Positions 14,600 through 63,271 of a DNA stretch of 64,000 bases are shown one piece after another (positions within the stretch are counted from its first letter, which is position 1; each line of letters opens with the position of its first letter). This stretch comes from Pedobacter boryungensis (GTDB taxonomy: Bacteria; Bacteroidota; Bacteroidia; Sphingobacteriales; Sphingobacteriaceae). Location: positions 992,001 to 1,056,000 of the forward strand of contig NZ_JABMKV010000002.1 of the NCBI RefSeq assembly GCF_013204825.1, read 5' to 3'. A program made the translations under genes and the position numbers. The notes below the pieces were generated by a model. It searched no databases, was not told the origin of the DNA, and saw nothing but the letters and a program-made list of their open reading frames with translations.

Positions 14600-14674
14600 C
14601 TACTGGATTAGTTCCTTAAAGAATGTTTTCAATTTTACATATTGAAGTAACATGATGGTTTTTCTATCCTTTAC
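14600..14674 (-). pseudogene. Remnant of a nudK 3' end
   Basis: The minus strand encodes [14 protein letters not shown] followed by a different short tail (KTFFKELIQ) and a stop at 14600-14602. The complete nudK gene ends [18 protein letters not shown]. Bases 14633-14664 are identical to 15084-15115 over 32 positions. The fragment has no start and is only the last part of a gene. Together with intact nudK it brackets the DUF4406 gene, suggesting an insertion or a duplication followed by loss. Confidence 0.75.
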
Positions 14675-14698: not shown

Positions 14699-15061
14699 TT
14701 ATTTTTCTAATAAGTTAGGGATTTCGTCTAAACTGTAATAAATTTTCAAACCCCGCTCTTGTGCAATTCTCACATCGTTGTCGGCTCCTTTTGATGCTCC
14801 TTCAAGTCGAAGAACTGCGTCACATTTTTCAAGAAGGCGATGTGCAACAGGATATTGTATTTCATCCCATGCACTGTCTCCAATTTCTTTTGAACCAGCT
14901 AAGTGCATTAAGGGTAAAGCTACCCATTCACCAATTATAGGGATATGTCCTTTACGAAATAATGGCAAGGCAACCGATTCAAGTTTATCTAAATTCTTTT
15001 TTATCAAAATTGGATCGTCGTTAGTGCCTCCTCTATAAGGCCCTGCTATAAGTATCATCAT
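14699..15061 (-). CDS. DUF4406 protein (nucleoside 2-deoxyribosyltransferase-like)
   Basis: 120 residues with the Rossmann-like fold of DUF4406, related to nucleoside 2-deoxyribosyltransferases. The N-terminal strand-loop MILIAGPYRGG, the WDEIQYPVAHRLLEKCDAVL helix-strand, and LEGASKGADNDVRIAQERGL (G-x-S-x-G-A-x-x-D...A) match that superfamily. The catalytic Glu position is not certain. It ends up four bases downstream of nudK on the same strand and lies between two copies of the nudK 3' end, so it may be a later arrival there. Confidence 0.82.
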   Translation of the reverse strand: MMILIAGPYRGGTNDDPILIKKNLDKLESVALPLFRKGHIPIIGEWVALPLMHLAGSKEIGDSAWDEIQYPVAHRLLEKCDAVLRLEGASKGADNDVRIAQERGLKIYYSLDEIPNLLEK

Positions 15062-15065
15062 AGTT

Positions 15066-15644
15066 TTAAAGTATGTTGTTCAGTTTTACATATTGAAGTA
15101 ACATGATGGTTTTTCCATCTTTAATTTCTCCAGTTTCTATCATTTGCATTGCTTGGGCAATATCAAGTTCTAATACTTCAATATTTTCTTCTTCATGCTC
15201 AAGGCCGCCACTGTCTGTTACTTTCATTTCCTTTGCGTATTCGGCCACAAAAAAATACAAAATCTCTGTTACCGAACCTGGAGACATATAGGCTTCAAAA
15301 ATTTTTCGTACTTCGGTAACTTTATAGCCTGTTTCCTCTTCGGTTTCTCTTCTAATACAATCTTCAGGGTTATCTTTATCTAACAAGCCTGCACAGGCTT
15401 CAATTAACATTCCAGATTCATTTCCATTCACAAAAGTTGGAAGTCTAAATTGTCTGGTTAGGATCACTGTTTTTTGTGCCTTGTTATACAGTAAAATGGT
15501 AGCTCCATTTCCCCTGTCGTAAGCTTCTCTGCTTTGAGTAAGTGTGGTGCCATCTTCTTTGGTGTACTCGTAGGTTATTTTTTTAAGCACATACCAATTG
15601 TCAGAAAGTACTTTAGTGTCTACTATTTTTACATTGTTTATCAT
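15066..15644 (-). CDS. nudK: GDP-mannose pyrophosphatase NudK (Nudix hydrolase)
   Basis: 192 residues, the length of NudK, which splits GDP-mannose into GMP and mannose 1-phosphate. The Nudix box is complete: G in AGLLD, then E and [11 protein letters not shown] (about 86-108), giving the REx2EExG metal-binding core. Typical family sequence also appears in [12 protein letters not shown] and [11 protein letters not shown] upstream and in the [14 protein letters not shown] segment downstream. The closest neighbour is the DUF4406 gene, which follows by four bases. A copy of its last 14 codons lies at 14600-14674. Confidence 0.9.
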
Positions 15645-56164: not shown

Positions 56165-56863
56165 ATGGATAATTACGATCAAAAATTAGGGATTAAAGCT
56201 TGGGCAGAAGCAGATAGACCACGAGAGAAATTACTTTTACAAGGTAGAAGACAATTGACTGATGCAGAGCTTATTGCAATTTTAATTGGCTCTGGAAGTA
56301 GAACCGAGACTGCAGTAGATTTAAGTAAAAGAATACTCAGTTTTTATCAAAATGATTTAGCCAAACTGGCGAAATTAAGTGTTAAAGAACTTTCTAAATT
56401 TAAAGGAATTGGTGAAGCAAAAGCTATTGCTATTGTTGCCGCATTAGAACTAGGTAGGCGCCGGAAAGAAACAGAGGAGAATGGTCAAGTAAAAATCACT
56501 TCCTCAAAAGATGCTTATTTTATTCTTAAACAGCAGCTTACAGATCTGCCTCATGAAGAATTTTGGATTTTGTTACTTAGTAGAGCCAACTTTGTAATTG
56601 GTAAGCATTTTATTAGTAAGGGCGGACAAGCAGGAACTGTAGTTGATCCGAAAATTATTTTTAAAGTAGCGATAGAGCATAATGCCTCATCAATTGTATT
56701 GGCGCATAATCATCCTTCTGGGAATTTAACTGCCAGTGGAGCTGATATTAAAATTACAAAGCAATTAATTGAAGCTGGCAAAACCTTAGAAATTACAGTT
56801 TATGATCATCTCATTATTAGCGATCACTCTTTTTTAAGCATGGCAGATGAAGGATTAATTTGA
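56165..56863 (+). CDS. radC: RadC-family protein (JAMM/UPF0758)
   Basis: 232 residues. An N-terminal helix-hairpin-helix part (LSVKELSKFKGIGEAKAIAI) precedes the JAB1/MPN-type domain with the metal motif VLAHNHPSGNLTASGADIKI (His-x-His and Asp) and Glu in PHEEFWILLLS. Despite the name, a repair role for RadC in E. coli was disproved, so function is unsettled. The start at 56165 is preceded by an out-of-frame ATG four bases earlier. Single gene. Confidence 0.92.
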   Translation: MDNYDQKLGIKAWAEADRPREKLLLQGRRQLTDAELIAILIGSGSRTETAVDLSKRILSFYQNDLAKLAKLSVKELSKFKGIGEAKAIAIVAALELGRRRKETEENGQVKITSSKDAYFILKQQLTDLPHEEFWILLLSRANFVIGKHFISKGGQAGTVVDPKIIFKVAIEHNASSIVLAHNHPSGNLTASGADIKITKQLIEAGKTLEITVYDHLIISDHSFLSMADEGLI

Positions 56864-56912: not shown

Positions 56913-57752
56913 ATGATGAAAAGAACATTTTTACTCCTATTAATATGTGTATCCATTACATCGATAACAAATGCACAGAAAAATCAGCCCATAAATATAA
57001 TTTCGTATAATATCAGATTAAATGTAGCATCTGATGGAATTAACGCTTGGCCTAACAGAAAAGATAATGTTAAAGCGTTGGTCAAATTTTACGATGCTGA
57101 TATTTTGTGTGTTCAGGAAGCTTTGCCAGAACAATTTGATGATTTGTTAGCCAAAACAGATTTTGATGTAGTAGGAGTTGGAAGAGATGATGGAAAACGA
57201 AAAGGTGAGTTTTCTGCTGTATATTTTAATAAAAATCGTTTCGTAAAAAAGGACGGCGGAACTTTTTGGTTATCACTTACTCCAGATGTACCTAGCAAAG
57301 GTTGGGATGCTGCTTTAAATAGAGTTTGTTCATGGGTAAAGTTGTATGATAAATCGAATAAAAGAGAGTTTATTGTTTTTAATACACATTATGATCACAT
57401 TGGAGTACAGGCAAGAATTGAGTCGGCGAAGTTAATTAAAAGAAAAATTCAGGAAATTGCACCAAAATTACCTGTGGTTTTTACAGGAGATTTAAATGTA
57501 ACTCCAGAAACTGAAGCGATTGCTACAATTAAATCATTTTTGACAGATGCCAAAGAAATTTCAATCGAACCACCTTACGGACCAAGTGGCACATTTAATG
57601 GGTTTAAGTGGGATAGTCCTTTAAAGGATAAAATTGACTACATCTTTGTAAATAAGACTTTTAAAGTGCAAAAATTCGCGGTATTATCTGACAGTAAAGA
57701 TCAACGTTATTACTCGGATCATTTACCAGTTTTTGCAAGGTTGATGTTTTAA
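56913..57752 (+). CDS. Secreted endonuclease/exonuclease/phosphatase-family protein
   Basis: 279 residues with a signal peptide (1-21, TNAQ cleavage). The EEP fold is complete: INIISYNIRL (Asn), LCVQEALPEQ (Glu), VVFTGDLNVTPE (Asp-x-Asn), KIDYIFVNK, and YYSDHLPVFARL (Asp-His). Extracytoplasmic members are phosphodiesterases acting on phospholipids, sugars or nucleotides. The stop codon overlaps the next start as TAATG, so it is coupled to the Lgt-like gene. Its last 33 codons are duplicated at 60147-60248. Confidence 0.9.
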   Translation: MMKRTFLLLLICVSITSITNAQKNQPINIISYNIRLNVASDGINAWPNRKDNVKALVKFYDADILCVQEALPEQFDDLLAKTDFDVVGVGRDDGKRKGEFSAVYFNKNRFVKKDGGTFWLSLTPDVPSKGWDAALNRVCSWVKLYDKSNKREFIVFNTHYDHIGVQARIESAKLIKRKIQEIAPKLPVVFTGDLNVTPETEAIATIKSFLTDAKEISIEPPYGPSGTFNGFKWDSPLKDKIDYIFVNKTFKVQKFAVLSDSKDQRYYSDHLPVFARLMF

Positions 57753-58516
57753 TGGGAGTTTTGAGTTTGATAAATTTTCCTGTACAATTTACAATTTATG
57801 GGAAACTTTACCATTGGCATTACATTTTTGAAACTTTAGCCTTTATTATTGGCATACGAGTTTATTATTACCTAAAAAAAGATATTAAAGATCCAATTTC
57901 GGATGAGAATAGGCTTTGGATTATGCTAGGAGCGATGATTGGTGCTTTGATAGGCTCTCGATTAATTGCCATACTAGAAACTCCAAACCAATTAAAAGGC
58001 CTCACATTTATGACTTTGTATGCAAGCAAAACTATTGTCGGTGGTTTGCTAGGTGGTTTATTTGGAGTAGAAATTATTAAAAAATTTATTGGAGTAAAGG
58101 TAGCGTCTGGTGATTTATATGTTGTTCCAATTCTTGTTGCCCTATTTATTGGTAGGATTGGTTGTTTTTTAATGGGGGTTGATGAGCCTACCTATGGAAT
58201 AAAGACTAATTTTTTTATGGGAATGGATTTAGGTGATGGTTTGAAAAGGCATCCAGTTGCACTTTATGAAATGATCTATTTGACTATACTTTTTATATTA
58301 TTTCAAGCCATTAAAAATAAAAGATTAATAAATGGAGATCGGTTTAAACTCTTTATGGTTTTATACTTTTTATACAGATATTTAGTTGAGTATATCAAAC
58401 CATACCAACCATTATTTTTTAATTTAAGCAGTATTCATTGGTCGGCGATTTTTATTATATTTTACTATTATAAATTCATCATTAGATTAATAAAAACAAT
58501 TTTAACTTATAAGTAA
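57752..58516 (+). CDS. Lgt-like membrane protein lacking key Lgt residues
   Basis: 254 residues, about seven membrane helices, clearly related to prolipoprotein diacylglyceryl transferase. The GRIG of the Lgt signature is at 134-137 and the downstream RHPVALYE (166-173) matches HPxxLYE; an Arg-containing YRYLVEY (208-214) matches the conserved late Arg. However, SKTIVGGLLGG (92-102) has Val where Lgt has the essential His103, and GRIGCFLMG has Cys where Lgt has Asn146 (E. coli numbering). So it may move a different lipid. It starts on the stop of the EEP gene and is three bases before the radical SAM gene. Confidence 0.82.
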   Translation: MGVLSLINFPVQFTIYGKLYHWHYIFETLAFIIGIRVYYYLKKDIKDPISDENRLWIMLGAMIGALIGSRLIAILETPNQLKGLTFMTLYASKTIVGGLLGGLFGVEIIKKFIGVKVASGDLYVVPILVALFIGRIGCFLMGVDEPTYGIKTNFFMGMDLGDGLKRHPVALYEMIYLTILFILFQAIKNKRLINGDRFKLFMVLYFLYRYLVEYIKPYQPLFFNLSSIHWSAIFIIFYYYKFIIRLIKTILTYK

Positions 58517-58519
58517 ACT

Positions 58520-59914
58520 ATGGCCAATACCAGAGATTATATTTATTACGATTATACTAAAAGTTTGTGTCCAGTATGTTTACTGCTTTGTGATGCGAAG
58601 ATTGTTTTTCAAGATACAAATGTTTATATGCTTAAGCATTGTAAAGTGCATGGCGATACTAAGGTGATGATTGCTGATGACATAGAATACTATAAGCAAA
58701 TTAGAAACTATAATAAGCAATCTGAAATGCCTTTAAAGTTTAACACAAAAGTTCATTACGGTTGCCCTTATGATTGTGGTTTGTGTACAGATCATGAACA
58801 ACATTCTTGTTTAACAGTAATTGAAGTAACAGATAGGTGTAACCTAGCTTGTCCAACCTGTTATGCAATGTCTTCTCCTAATTATGGCAGACATAGAACT
58901 TTGGAGGAAATTGAAAAGATGATGGATGTTGTAGTTGCTAATGAAGGTGAACCTGATGTAGTGCAACTTTCTGGTGGCGAACCAACAGTCCATCCACAAT
59001 TCTTCGAAATTCTAGATATTGCAAAAACAAAGCCCATTAAACATTTAATGGTGAATACAAATGGAATTCGTATTGCTAAAGATGTCAACTTCGTTGAAAA
59101 ATTGGCAAAATATATGCCTGATTTTGAAATCTATTTGCAGTTTGATAGTTTTAACGCAGATGTATTAACAAGGTTGAGAGGTGAAGATTTAACACAGGTA
59201 AGAAAAAAAGCAATTTATAATCTTAATAAATTTAATGTATCTACAACATTGGTTGTTACACTTCAAAATGGTTTAAATGACCATGAAATTGGTGACATTA
59301 TTGAATATGCACTTAAACAAAGATGCGTTAGAGGTGTTACTTTTCAGCCCACTCAAGTTGCCGGCAGAAATGATAACTATAATGATCAAACTGGAAGAAT
59401 TACTTTAACAGAAGTTCGGAGAAAAATCTACGAACAATATCCAACCTTTACTCCGCAAGATTTAATTCCGGTACCTTGCAATCCTGACGCATTATGTATG
59501 GCATACGCTTTAAAAATTGGTGATGAAGTAATTCCTATGACTCATTTAATTAATCCTGAAGATTTATTAAACAACTCTAAAAACACGATAGTTTTTGAGC
59601 ACGATGAAAAATTAAAAGAGCATATGCTTAACTTGTTTAGCACAGGAGTTTCTGTAGATTGTGCAGAAGATACATTTGGCGAATTAATGTGCTGTTTACC
59701 TAGAGTAAAATCTGATAATTTGAGCTATGATAATTTATTTCGTATCATTATCATGAATTTTATGGATCCTTTAGACTTTGACGTTCGTGCTGTAAAGAAA
59801 TCTTGTGTTCACATTGTAAGTGATAAGTATAAGATTGTTCCGTTCGAAACGATGAATATTTTTTATCGTGATCATAAAATAGATGCGATTAGAGAAAAAT
59901 TAAATTTAAACTAG
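58520..59914 (+). CDS. Radical SAM protein of the Tes/MJ0619 (membrane-spanning lipid synthase-like) family
   Basis: 464 residues. The radical SAM motif CNLACPTC (Cys 107, 111, 114) holds the cluster. Many further cysteines suggest extra metal centres: CPVC (17-20) and Cys 41, GCPYDCGLC (81-89) with Cys 97, CNPDALC (about 321-327) and the late CAED and MCC. The layout N-terminal Cys pair, HxxC-GLC, CL-x-I-x-VT-RCNL resembles the tetraether lipid synthase Tes (MJ0619) family and its bacterial relatives that join lipid chains. This is motif recall, unsearched. Between an Lgt-like and a small membrane protein, so a lipid target is plausible. Confidence 0.8.
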   Translation: MANTRDYIYYDYTKSLCPVCLLLCDAKIVFQDTNVYMLKHCKVHGDTKVMIADDIEYYKQIRNYNKQSEMPLKFNTKVHYGCPYDCGLCTDHEQHSCLTVIEVTDRCNLACPTCYAMSSPNYGRHRTLEEIEKMMDVVVANEGEPDVVQLSGGEPTVHPQFFEILDIAKTKPIKHLMVNTNGIRIAKDVNFVEKLAKYMPDFEIYLQFDSFNADVLTRLRGEDLTQVRKKAIYNLNKFNVSTTLVVTLQNGLNDHEIGDIIEYALKQRCVRGVTFQPTQVAGRNDNYNDQTGRITLTEVRRKIYEQYPTFTPQDLIPVPCNPDALCMAYALKIGDEVIPMTHLINPEDLLNNSKNTIVFEHDEKLKEHMLNLFSTGVSVDCAEDTFGELMCCLPRVKSDNLSYDNLFRIIIMNFMDPLDFDVRAVKKSCVHIVSDKYKIVPFETMNIFYRDHKIDAIREKLNLN

Positions 59915-59917
59915 ATT

Positions 59918-60124
59918 ATGGAAGGTGTTGTTGTTTTAAGTTTATTGTATTGGATAGCGGCTGGAGTTGTATTTTTAATTAGTTTGATTCAACTTATTAT
60001 TAAATCATCCAATAACAAGCCTCTAAAACCCGCATTAAGGCTGCTAATTATTTCTGTAATTATGTTAGTGATCGGTGTAGGAGCTTGCGCTGTAATATTA
60101 GGTGGTTTGGGTAGTATGCACTAA
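59918..60124 (+). CDS. Small two-helix membrane protein
   Basis: 68 residues with two membrane helices (about 5-28 and 40-63), joined by a short Lys-rich loop (KSSNNKPLKPALR). A Gly-rich end (GVGACAVILGGLGS) suggests close helix packing. It starts three bases after the radical SAM stop, so it belongs to the same operon, and ends about 20 bases before the duplicated EEP end. No known family; likely a partner of the lipid-type enzymes. Confidence 0.72.
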   Translation: MEGVVVLSLLYWIAAGVVFLISLIQLIIKSSNNKPLKPALRLLIISVIMLVIGVGACAVILGGLGSMH

Positions 60125-60146
60125 CATTAAGTTCTAATGTTAGGAA

Positions 60147-60248
60147 AATAAGACATTTAAAGTGCAAAAATTCGCAGTATTATCTAATAGTAAAGATCAA
60201 CGTTATTACTCGGATCATTTACCTGTTTTTGCAAAGCTGATGTTTTAA
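60147..60248 (+). pseudogene. Duplicated 3' end of the EEP gene
   Basis: These 102 bases match the end of the EEP gene (57651-57752) at 95 positions with no gap, up to and including the stop. Four of the seven changes are silent, two make Asp to Asn, one makes Arg to Lys. There is no start codon and no other part of the gene. The pattern looks like the end of a working relative, not random decay. Confidence 0.85.
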
Positions 60249-60264: not shown

Positions 60265-60699
60265 CTAATTAGATTTTTCTTCTTTGACTTTTTCCTTCTT
60301 TCTAATAAATGTCATTGTGTTTTTTCGTGTTTCCCTTAACCAATTCGTTTGTTTGTCGTTAACATGTTGAATTTTAATAGTATCAGGGCCTAAAGGTTTG
60401 ATGAAATAGTATAAAATTAATGTACGAACACCGCTTCCTTTATCAGGAGTAGTTAATTTTAGTTGATCTAAATCTCCAGTTTTATAAATTTCATAACTTC
60501 CATCAGTTTGTAACTCATTTCCTTTACGTTCCAATATGCTTATAAACTTGTTGTCGACATCAAATTTGTAAGTCAATTTATTTTTCTTTTTTGGGCTTTC
60601 ATATTCCCATGTACCCTTTATTGATTTATAGTTAATCACCTGTGCATTTGCCAAAGAAAAGTACAGACAAATAATGATTAGCATGCTGAGGAATTTCAT
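60265..60699 (-). CDS. Secreted lipocalin-like hypothetical protein
   Basis: 144 residues with a signal peptide (1-19, ANA-Q). The mature part opens with YKSIKGTWEYESPKKKNKLT and continues in beta strands such as DNKFISILERKGNELQTDG, the pattern of lipocalin-like DUF4488/Lipocalin_4-type proteins in Bacteroidota; the tail is Lys/Glu-rich. The ligand is unknown. It is convergent with the operon that carries the radical SAM gene. Confidence 0.65.
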   Translation of the reverse strand: MKFLSMLIIICLYFSLANAQVINYKSIKGTWEYESPKKKNKLTYKFDVDNKFISILERKGNELQTDGSYEIYKTGDLDQLKLTTPDKGSGVRTLILYYFIKPLGPDTIKIQHVNDKQTNWLRETRKNTMTFIRKKEKVKEEKSN

Positions 60700-60871: not shown

Positions 60872-63271
60872 ATGAAAATATCATATAGTTGGCTTAAACA
60901 ATTTATACAAACTGATAAAACTCCACAAGAAATTTCTTTAATCTTAACCGATATAGGTTTAGAGGTAGAAAGCTTGGAAAAAGTTCAGCCCATTGTAGGT
61001 GGATTAGAAGGGTTAGTTATTGGTCATGTAGTAGAGTGTGTTCAGCACCCAAATGCAGATCGTTTACGTGTAACAAAAGTTGATGTAGGTACTGGCGAAT
61101 TATTGCAAATTGTATGTGGTGCGCCAAATGTCGCTGCTAATCAGAAAGTAGTTGTAGCTACAGTTGGTACAACAGTTTATCCAAACGAAGGTGAACCGTT
61201 TAAAATAAATAAATCTAAAATTAGGGGAGAGGTTTCTGAAGGGATGATTTGTGCAGAAGATGAAATCGGTTTAGGTACATCTCACGATGGAATTATGGTT
61301 TTGCCAGAAAATACTGAAATCGGTATTGCTGCAAAGTCTTATTTCAAAATGGATGACGATTTTATGTTTGAAATTGGTTTAACACCAAACAGAGCAGATG
61401 CGGCGTCACATTTAGGCGTAGCTAGAGATTTAGCTGCTTATTTGCGAACTTCTTATCAACTACCAGATGTTTCAAATTTTAAAACTGAGAATGAAGATTT
61501 AAAAATTGAAGTTAAGGTTGAAGATACAGTAGCTTGTCCTCGTTATAGCAGTGTAAGCATTACGGGTGTAACTGTAAAATCATCGCCAGATTGGTTAAAA
61601 GATAAATTGAAAGTTATTGGTATTCGTCCAATTAATAATATTGTTGATATTACGAATTACGTGTTGCATGAATTGGGACAACCTTTACATGCATTTGATG
61701 CGGACCAAATTAAAGGCAAACAAGTTATTGTTAAAAAATGCCCAGAGGGAACTCCGTTTATAACGCTAGATGATGTAGAACGCAAACTTTCTGCAGATGA
61801 TTTAATGATTTGCGATGCTGAAAAACCATTGTGTATTGCTGGTGTATTTGGTGGAAAAACTTCTGGAGTAAGCGACAAAACCACAAATATTTTCTTAGAA
61901 AGCGCTTATTTTAATTCAGTTTCAGTGCGTAAAACTTCTAAAAGACATAACCTAAAAACAGATGCATCTTTTAGATTTGAGCGTGGTACAGATCCAGAAA
62001 TTACAGTTTTTGCATTAAAACGTGCTGCATTATTAATTCAAGAAATTGCAGGTGGAAAAATTTCTTCATCAATTTCAGATAACTATCCTGTAAAGTCAAA
62101 TCCTTTTGATGTTGAAGTTAATTATTCAAATATTGTAAAACTAATTGGTCAGGATATTCCTGCTGCAGAAATTAAAGCAATTATTGTAGCATTAGGGATT
62201 GAAGTGGTTAAGGAAACCGAACAAGGTTTAAGTTTAAAAGTGCCAGCGTATAAAGTAGATGTAACTCGCGAATGCGATATTACTGAAGAAGTTTTGCGTA
62301 TTTATGGTTACAACAATATTCATATTCCTACTAAAGTAAATGCATCTTTGGCTTATACAGCGAAGCCGAATAAAGAAAATGTACAAAATCTAATCGCAGA
62401 TATGTTAACTGCAAATGGGTTTTTAGAAATTTGGTGTAATTCGCTAACTCGTTCGGCTTTTTCAAAAAATCCTGATGAGGCAGTACAAATTTTAAATCCG
62501 TTAAGTTCAGATTTAAATGTAATGCGCCAAAGTTTATTACAGCCTGCTTTAGAAAGTGTAGCATATAATCAGAATCGTAAAAATTCTGATTTAAAGCTTT
62601 ATGAATTTGGTAAAACATATCATCACATTGATTCTAAATATGTAGAACGTCCACGTTTATTAATTTTAATTAGCGGCGCAAAACAAAGTGAACAATGGAA
62701 CCACGCAACTACACCATCAACATTTTACAATTTGAAAGCAACAGTTGATGCGATAATTGGTCGTTTAGGTATCACTAATTATCAGGTTAATGAAGTCAAG
62801 GATGAAAACTTCACCTATGGCTTAACCTATTTTAGGGGAGATAAGACTTTGGTTTCTTTTGGAGCGGCAACAGCAGCAGATAGGAAACAAGCTGATTTAG
62901 ATAAAGATGTATTTTATGCAGATTTTGACTGGGCTTTATTGTTAGATGTTATTCGTAAAAATAAGATTATAAACAAAGAAGTGTCAAAATATCCGGCAGT
63001 GCGAAGAGATTTATCAATGTTGGTTAATGAGCAAGTTACTTTTGATGAGTTGAAAGGAATTGCATTTAAAACAGAGAAAAAACTAATTAAAAACATACAG
63101 GTATTTGATGTGTATCAAGGTGATAAATTACCTGCTGGGAAAAAATCTTATGCGCTAAATTTCACTTTACAGGATGAAGAACAAACTTTAACCGATAAAC
63201 AAATTGATGCCATTATGCAAAAGATTATAGTTAACTTAGCCCAAACTGCAAAAGCAGAAATAAGAAAATAA
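60872..63271 (+). CDS. pheT: Phenylalanine--tRNA ligase subunit beta
   Basis: 799 residues. In order: the N-terminal part and tRNA-binding OB domain (about 40-150, VGDVV-type LVIGHVVECVQHPNADRLRV), the B3/B4 editing region (about 215-380, DITNYVLHELGQPLHAFDAD), B5 (410-475), the catalytic-like core (490-680), and the ferredoxin-like anticodon domain at the C-terminus (SKYPAVRRDLSMLVNEQVTF). pheS is not adjacent, as is usual in this phylum. The -7 type sequence TATCTTTG lies at 60791-60798. Confidence 0.96.
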   Translation: MKISYSWLKQFIQTDKTPQEISLILTDIGLEVESLEKVQPIVGGLEGLVIGHVVECVQHPNADRLRVTKVDVGTGELLQIVCGAPNVAANQKVVVATVGTTVYPNEGEPFKINKSKIRGEVSEGMICAEDEIGLGTSHDGIMVLPENTEIGIAAKSYFKMDDDFMFEIGLTPNRADAASHLGVARDLAAYLRTSYQLPDVSNFKTENEDLKIEVKVEDTVACPRYSSVSITGVTVKSSPDWLKDKLKVIGIRPINNIVDITNYVLHELGQPLHAFDADQIKGKQVIVKKCPEGTPFITLDDVERKLSADDLMICDAEKPLCIAGVFGGKTSGVSDKTTNIFLESAYFNSVSVRKTSKRHNLKTDASFRFERGTDPEITVFALKRAALLIQEIAGGKISSSISDNYPVKSNPFDVEVNYSNIVKLIGQDIPAAEIKAIIVALGIEVVKETEQGLSLKVPAYKVDVTRECDITEEVLRIYGYNNIHIPTKVNASLAYTAKPNKENVQNLIADMLTANGFLEIWCNSLTRSAFSKNPDEAVQILNPLSSDLNVMRQSLLQPALESVAYNQNRKNSDLKLYEFGKTYHHIDSKYVERPRLLILISGAKQSEQWNHATTPSTFYNLKATVDAIIGRLGITNYQVNEVKDENFTYGLTYFRGDKTLVSFGAATAADRKQADLDKDVFYADFDWALLLDVIRKNKIINKEVSKYPAVRRDLSMLVNEQVTFDELKGIAFKTEKKLIKNIQVFDVYQGDKLPAGKKSYALNFTLQDEEQTLTDKQIDAIMQKIIVNLAQTAKAEIRK

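Follow-up and report, generated by a model that had tools for sequence, protein, structure and literature searches.

A duplicated EEP gene end bracketing an Lgt-radical SAM cassette in Pedobacter boryungensis: a probable recombination scar

How did the end of one gene come to stand on both sides of three other genes? The question is raised by a locus in a 64,000-nucleotide stretch of Pedobacter boryungensis DNA, the whole of which is called the window here. An endonuclease/exonuclease/phosphatase (EEP) gene (56913-57752, + strand, 279 aa; PF03372, E-value of 6e-18) is intact, and its last 102 bases including the stop codon (57651-57752, + strand) recur on the + strand at 60147-60248. The two copies agree without gaps at 95 of 102 positions and end at a common stop codon; coordinates, identity and shared stop were thus reproduced as the original prediction had given them. 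Its description of the seven differences was likewise recovered (four silent, two that together turn Asp into Asn, and a single one giving Lys for Arg), as was its statement that the three-gene block starts on the EEP stop, which overlaps the ATG of the first gene (TAATG). On the 5′ side, the match reaches one base further (103 nt, 96 identical) and breaks off sharply, and the stop codon forms its right limit.

The repeat lies far beyond chance, since local alignment of the window’s EEP end with its own downstream copy gives a score of 171, whereas EEP ends of other genomes reach at best 35 against their own downstream DNA, one sister genome (167) excepted. BLAST lengthens the match by about 18 gapped bases beyond the stop, but approximately 4% of random 60-mers of the window extend equally, and homology beyond the stop codon was rejected as not significant. 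A scan of 1.2 Mb of the window’s contig found no other repeat pair in which the end of a long gene is repeated past intervening genes. Elsewhere in the window, a 64-nt direct repeat (89%) occupies 14609-14671 and 15061-15122, 452 nt apart; the end of one copy lies near the stop of a minus-strand ORF.

Between the two copies lie three + strand genes, referred to as the block or cassette. The first encodes a paralogue of Lgt (57752-58516, 254 aa; PF01790, E-value of 9.5e-21), the second a radical SAM enzyme resembling Tes and TrsS (rSAM; 58520-59914, 464 aa) and the third, known as an ORF, a small hydrophobic protein (59918-60124, 68 aa). No integrase, transposase or recombinase was found among the three by ORF inspection and domain search. 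Directly past the cassette and directly ahead of the downstream copy, a hairpin with a perfect 9-bp stem (CTAACATTA/TAATGTTAG) was observed (60121-60143, + strand; fold z −2.5); it has no T-run, and terminator prediction called none there. The downstream copy is followed by a gene for a 144-aa protein on the minus strand (60265-60699; the 60265 gene), which occurs at the site in eight surveyed genomes. Conserved ORFs flank the locus, radC on the left (56165-56863, + strand; same order in the surveyed genomes) and pheT on the right (60872-63271, + strand). A suspected Lgt stub after the downstream copy was set aside, as the apparent match to G057 sits in the end of the 60265 gene.

To place the locus in context, the radC-EEP-pheT interval was compared in 97 Pedobacter genomes (the window’s and 96 related ones). 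The block is present in 53 and absent from 44. Its lgt-like gene directly follows EEP in 52 genomes, and two genes intervene in the remaining block-bearer (G026); one or two homologues of the small gene come after the rSAM gene in block-bearing relatives. On a pheT+zapA tree of 92 species, block presence requires at least 13 state changes, and the sister pairs G000/G056, G026/G027, G057/G018, G010/G049 and G128/G037 differ in block state. Based on this patchy distribution, we conclude that the block is an old, patchily kept tenant of the site and no newcomer to the genus. Sites without it take several forms: EEP, a small lipoprotein gene and then the 60265 gene in G027 and G048, EEP running straight to pheT in G075 and G109, and EEP followed after at most 9 nt by the 60265 gene in P. 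cryotolerans (G018). The last is the empty site that the original prediction had described, found here in a comparison of species rather than of conspecifics. It had also reasoned that the event would be old if all relatives kept the same truncated copy; among the 97 genomes, a duplicated EEP end exists only in that of the window and in its sister species, P. planticolens (G056).

DNA identities of the block to G026 and G057 (lgt 81 and 78%, rSAM 84 and 83%, respectively) resemble those of the flanking genes. Because the block has diverged like its neighbors, any donor must be very close kin; a foreign donor was rejected on the same ground, and the EEP tree broadly agrees with the pheT tree. 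The window’s larger clade, with ten members, lies wholly on one side of a branch in the block tree, and a tree keeping the window’s closer clade together was not rejected (p = 0.27).

P. planticolens, the window’s sister on the pheT+zapA tree (support 99), carries a parallel scar with different cargo. There, EEP is followed by 517 nt, a gene for a 405-aa protein, one for a 166-aa lipoprotein, an EEP end of 91 bp (97%), the 60265 gene and pheT, in this order. The 405-aa protein is taken for a putative C10-like protease from its sequence; 11 of 145 Pedobacter genomes contain relatives of it, and within the surveyed EEP-pheT intervals P. planticolens alone does. The left breakpoints of the two scars are 12 nt apart. 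The 517 nt ahead of the protease-like gene contain a 47-bp direct repeat (89%, copies 417 nt apart; L061:5450-7700), the first copy of which begins 2-3 nt past the EEP stop. EEP itself is 85–89% identical in DNA between the two species over its whole length, and no mosaic break was seen inside the gene along this comparison. A second genome collection contained no genome nearer to the window’s than P. planticolens.

The downstream copy of the window is now a relic that has lost constraint, as Asp260, invariant in all 97 EEPs, is Asn there; the sister’s relic has Tyr where all 97 have Ser or Thr. Nevertheless, silent changes (four of seven differences in the window’s repeat, six of ten over both scars) are commoner than neutral drift predicts, with P = 0.03–0.09 for the window and 0.005–0.03 with the sister’s scar added, the range depending on transition bias. 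With so few differences, the excess is modest, and it would suit a divergence partly gathered while both copies were working alleles. The suggestion that the copy is a diverged functional relative rather than a neutral relic is thus corrected for the present, while a partly functional past fits the silent excess.

Within a genome, the two copies are closer to each other (95/102 = 93% in the window, 88/91 = 97% in the sister) than are the EEP ends of the two species (86/102, about 85%), and they share states not present in the other of the two species. This leaves two options, a donor that was almost conspecific in each case or homogenization of the copies by gene conversion. Compared with the sister’s EEP end, the window’s two copies match at 86 and 84 of 102 positions; neither is clearly nearer, so that incoming and resident ends are inseparable by similarity.

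We consider the downstream copy to be the scar of a recombination between a block-bearing and a block-less allele of very close kin, with a probability of roughly 0.6. The recipient would have been a chromosome in which EEP was directly followed by the 60265 gene, presumed to be the native neighbor of the resident EEP end, and the incoming DNA would have come from a very close relative carrying EEP, lgt, rSAM and the small gene in this order. The left exchange would have been homologous and within EEP. The right joint would have formed without homology, the incoming end (about 20 nt beyond the stop of the small gene) being joined to the resident EEP approximately 103 bases before its stop. With the right joint inside the resident gene, the intact EEP would end with the incoming 3′ end and be followed by the cassette, and the resident 3′ end would persist as a decaying relic beside its old neighbor, the 60265 gene. 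Such an event would be a homology-facilitated illegitimate recombination; a single crossover with a circle of the same DNA would give an identical structure. From this arrangement we infer which way the DNA moved, that the mechanism was one-sided and what kind of genome acted as donor.

Two alleles are indicated by three features taken together: the homology stops at the stop codon, the relic adjoins the 60265 gene, and the junction of EEP and cassette is the one seen in relatives. Homology should end at the stop if two complete EEP ends met that were followed by different DNA. On one side of the insert there is homology, as the EEP ends are 93% alike and relatives have the cassette directly after EEP, and insert-free alleles exist in related species (EEP-60265 gene in G018; block-less G027 and G048). 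At the right joint, which may be non-homologous or microhomologous, the relic’s left edge is abrupt. The first of the two explanations in the original prediction, a donor block that entered by homologous recombination and left the native end downstream, is supported as to recombination by the empty sites and the sister’s parallel scar, but the block is not new to a site where 52 of 97 genomes have it directly after EEP, and any donor was very close kin. Against recombination of two alleles speaks that the donor allele was not found among the genomes compared, the nearest being P. planticolens, and that the only two scars lie in sister species with breakpoints 12 nt apart, a coincidence that is awkward to reconcile with independent events. 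The inseparability of incoming and resident ends and the states shared within a genome count against it as well.

This coincidence would vanish if a single scar had formed in the common ancestor of the window’s species and P. planticolens, one lineage later exchanging its cargo and gene conversion keeping the copies alike. Such an origin is possible, if rather unlikely. Only these two sisters among 97 genomes carry a scar, the same 60265 gene adjoins it, the left breakpoints nearly agree, and the sequence from relic to 60265 gene looks partly alignable between the two species. However, with an ancestral scar and no conversion, the copies should be no more alike than the species are (about 15% difference), and the actual differences are 7% and 3%. 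Further, no position unites the relics to the exclusion of the functional ends. Conversion would be required across the entire 91-102-bp repeat in both lineages, in addition to the cargo swap. A more far-reaching idea, which we regard as doubtful, is that the EEP end is a standing exchange site, where duplicated ends, kept alike by conversion, let cassettes leave and enter by homologous recombination without a recombinase. In this way, the sister species would have come to hold different cargo in the same bracket.

Copying of the 102 bases within one genome, e.g., by template switching and with no second allele involved, is improbable. It would agree with Thr249, which both the window’s EEP and its relic have and which occurs in no other of the 97 EEPs, and with a block diverging at the rate of its neighbors, but it leaves unexplained why the copies of both species end at the stop and adjoin the 60265 gene, which directly follows EEP in a block-less relative.

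Integrase-borne islands insert at the 3′ ends of genes and restore the gene end. Two different cargoes at one gene end and scars of similar length could accordingly suggest a mobile element that carries both gene sets and uses the repeat as its attachment site. We consider this very improbable, as no integrase is evident in either the window’s or the sister’s insert (2.3–2.4 kb), 51 other species have the block after EEP without an EEP-end repeat, and the breakpoints differ by 12 nt; viral carriage of the rSAM enzyme was also rejected, the protein having no match in viral contigs. Equally hard to credit is the original alternative that a second full-length EEP gene once lay downstream of the block and has disappeared apart from its final 102 bases: the relic does end exactly at the stop and its changes lean silent, but full-length EEP genes occur as a pair at none of the 97 loci, and the sister too keeps just an end fragment of nearly equal length.

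A comparable case is found on the other side of the interval. In P. frigiditerrae (G026; L063), the block stands after the homologue of the 60265 gene and ahead of pheT. In front of lgt there now stands the native sequence from upstream of pheT (91% to the sister G027), and the sequence ahead of pheT itself is another one, 88% like that of G109. As judged from these similarities, this arrangement suggests a re-entry of the block anchored at the pheT side. It is the weaker case, because its direct repeat is a 23-nt promoter-like core only.

The cassette is the more interesting part of the locus than the scar. Its Lgt paralogue exceeds the cut-off of the LGT Pfam domain (74.6 against 24.9 bits) but stays below the level for true Lgt (TIGR00544, 30.8 against 118.9 bits), and a separate, better-scoring Lgt is encoded elsewhere in the same genome. 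The rSAM protein carries the radical SAM motif CX3CX2C (CNLACPTC) and aligns with the structure of tetraether synthase (PDB 7TOL; E-value of 1e-63) over residues 13–320 and 403–452. It scores below the cut-offs of both NF045702 (Tes; 270.7 against 450 bits) and NF045646 (TrsS radical SAM (seleno)protein; 314.7 against 490 bits). Twenty-eight further loci from Bacteroidota were examined, and at 24 of them an Lgt paralogue lies just upstream of the rSAM gene on the same strand. The two proteins may modify lipids together, and the Lgt paralogue with its tetraether-synthase-like partner is possibly an undescribed lipid-modifying pair or pathway. Compared with Tes/GDGT-MAS (PMC9433317, PMC8941075), the cassette enzyme aligns with 7TOL and keeps the rubredoxin-type motif CX2CX20CX2H described for Tes (PMC9433317) as C17-X2-C20-X20-C41-X2-H44. 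In contrast, it is bacterial, below the NCBIfam Tes cut-off and paired with an Lgt paralogue. Both papers mention bacterial homologues of unknown function (PMC9433317, PMC8941075).

At this one chromosomal position, the turnover of small cassettes has left a legible footprint in which genes of mobile elements play no part. Neighboring species repeatedly gain, lose or swap small cassettes there, and the process is made testable by two sisters whose scars are parallel but differ in cargo, together with nearby empty sites. Homology-facilitated illegitimate recombination has been proposed for effector-immunity cassettes and their displacement in Vibrio cholerae (PMC5361080) and, in work cited in PMC5361080 and PMC2884548, described from experiments with Acinetobacter, Pseudomonas stutzeri and Streptococcus pneumoniae. 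In V. cholerae, homology anchors the cassette on one side, the joint on the opposite side is non-homologous, and resident sequence is retained downstream of the new cassette, as would be the case here. The leftover there is a retained immunity gene, whereas here it is a functionless 102-bp gene end, and the mechanism is deduced from the arrangement. Homology-assisted illegitimate recombination also partly explains small variable segments at dimorphic loci (PMC2884548), which resemble our locus in that a conserved site is occupied by one or another short segment, some of these with flanking direct repeats. Those differ between strains within a species and most of their repeats are shorter than 30 bp, whereas the difference here is between species and the repeat 102 bp long. 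Most likely, the locus is thus a clean new example of an ordinary process with a known mechanism, and no new type of element.
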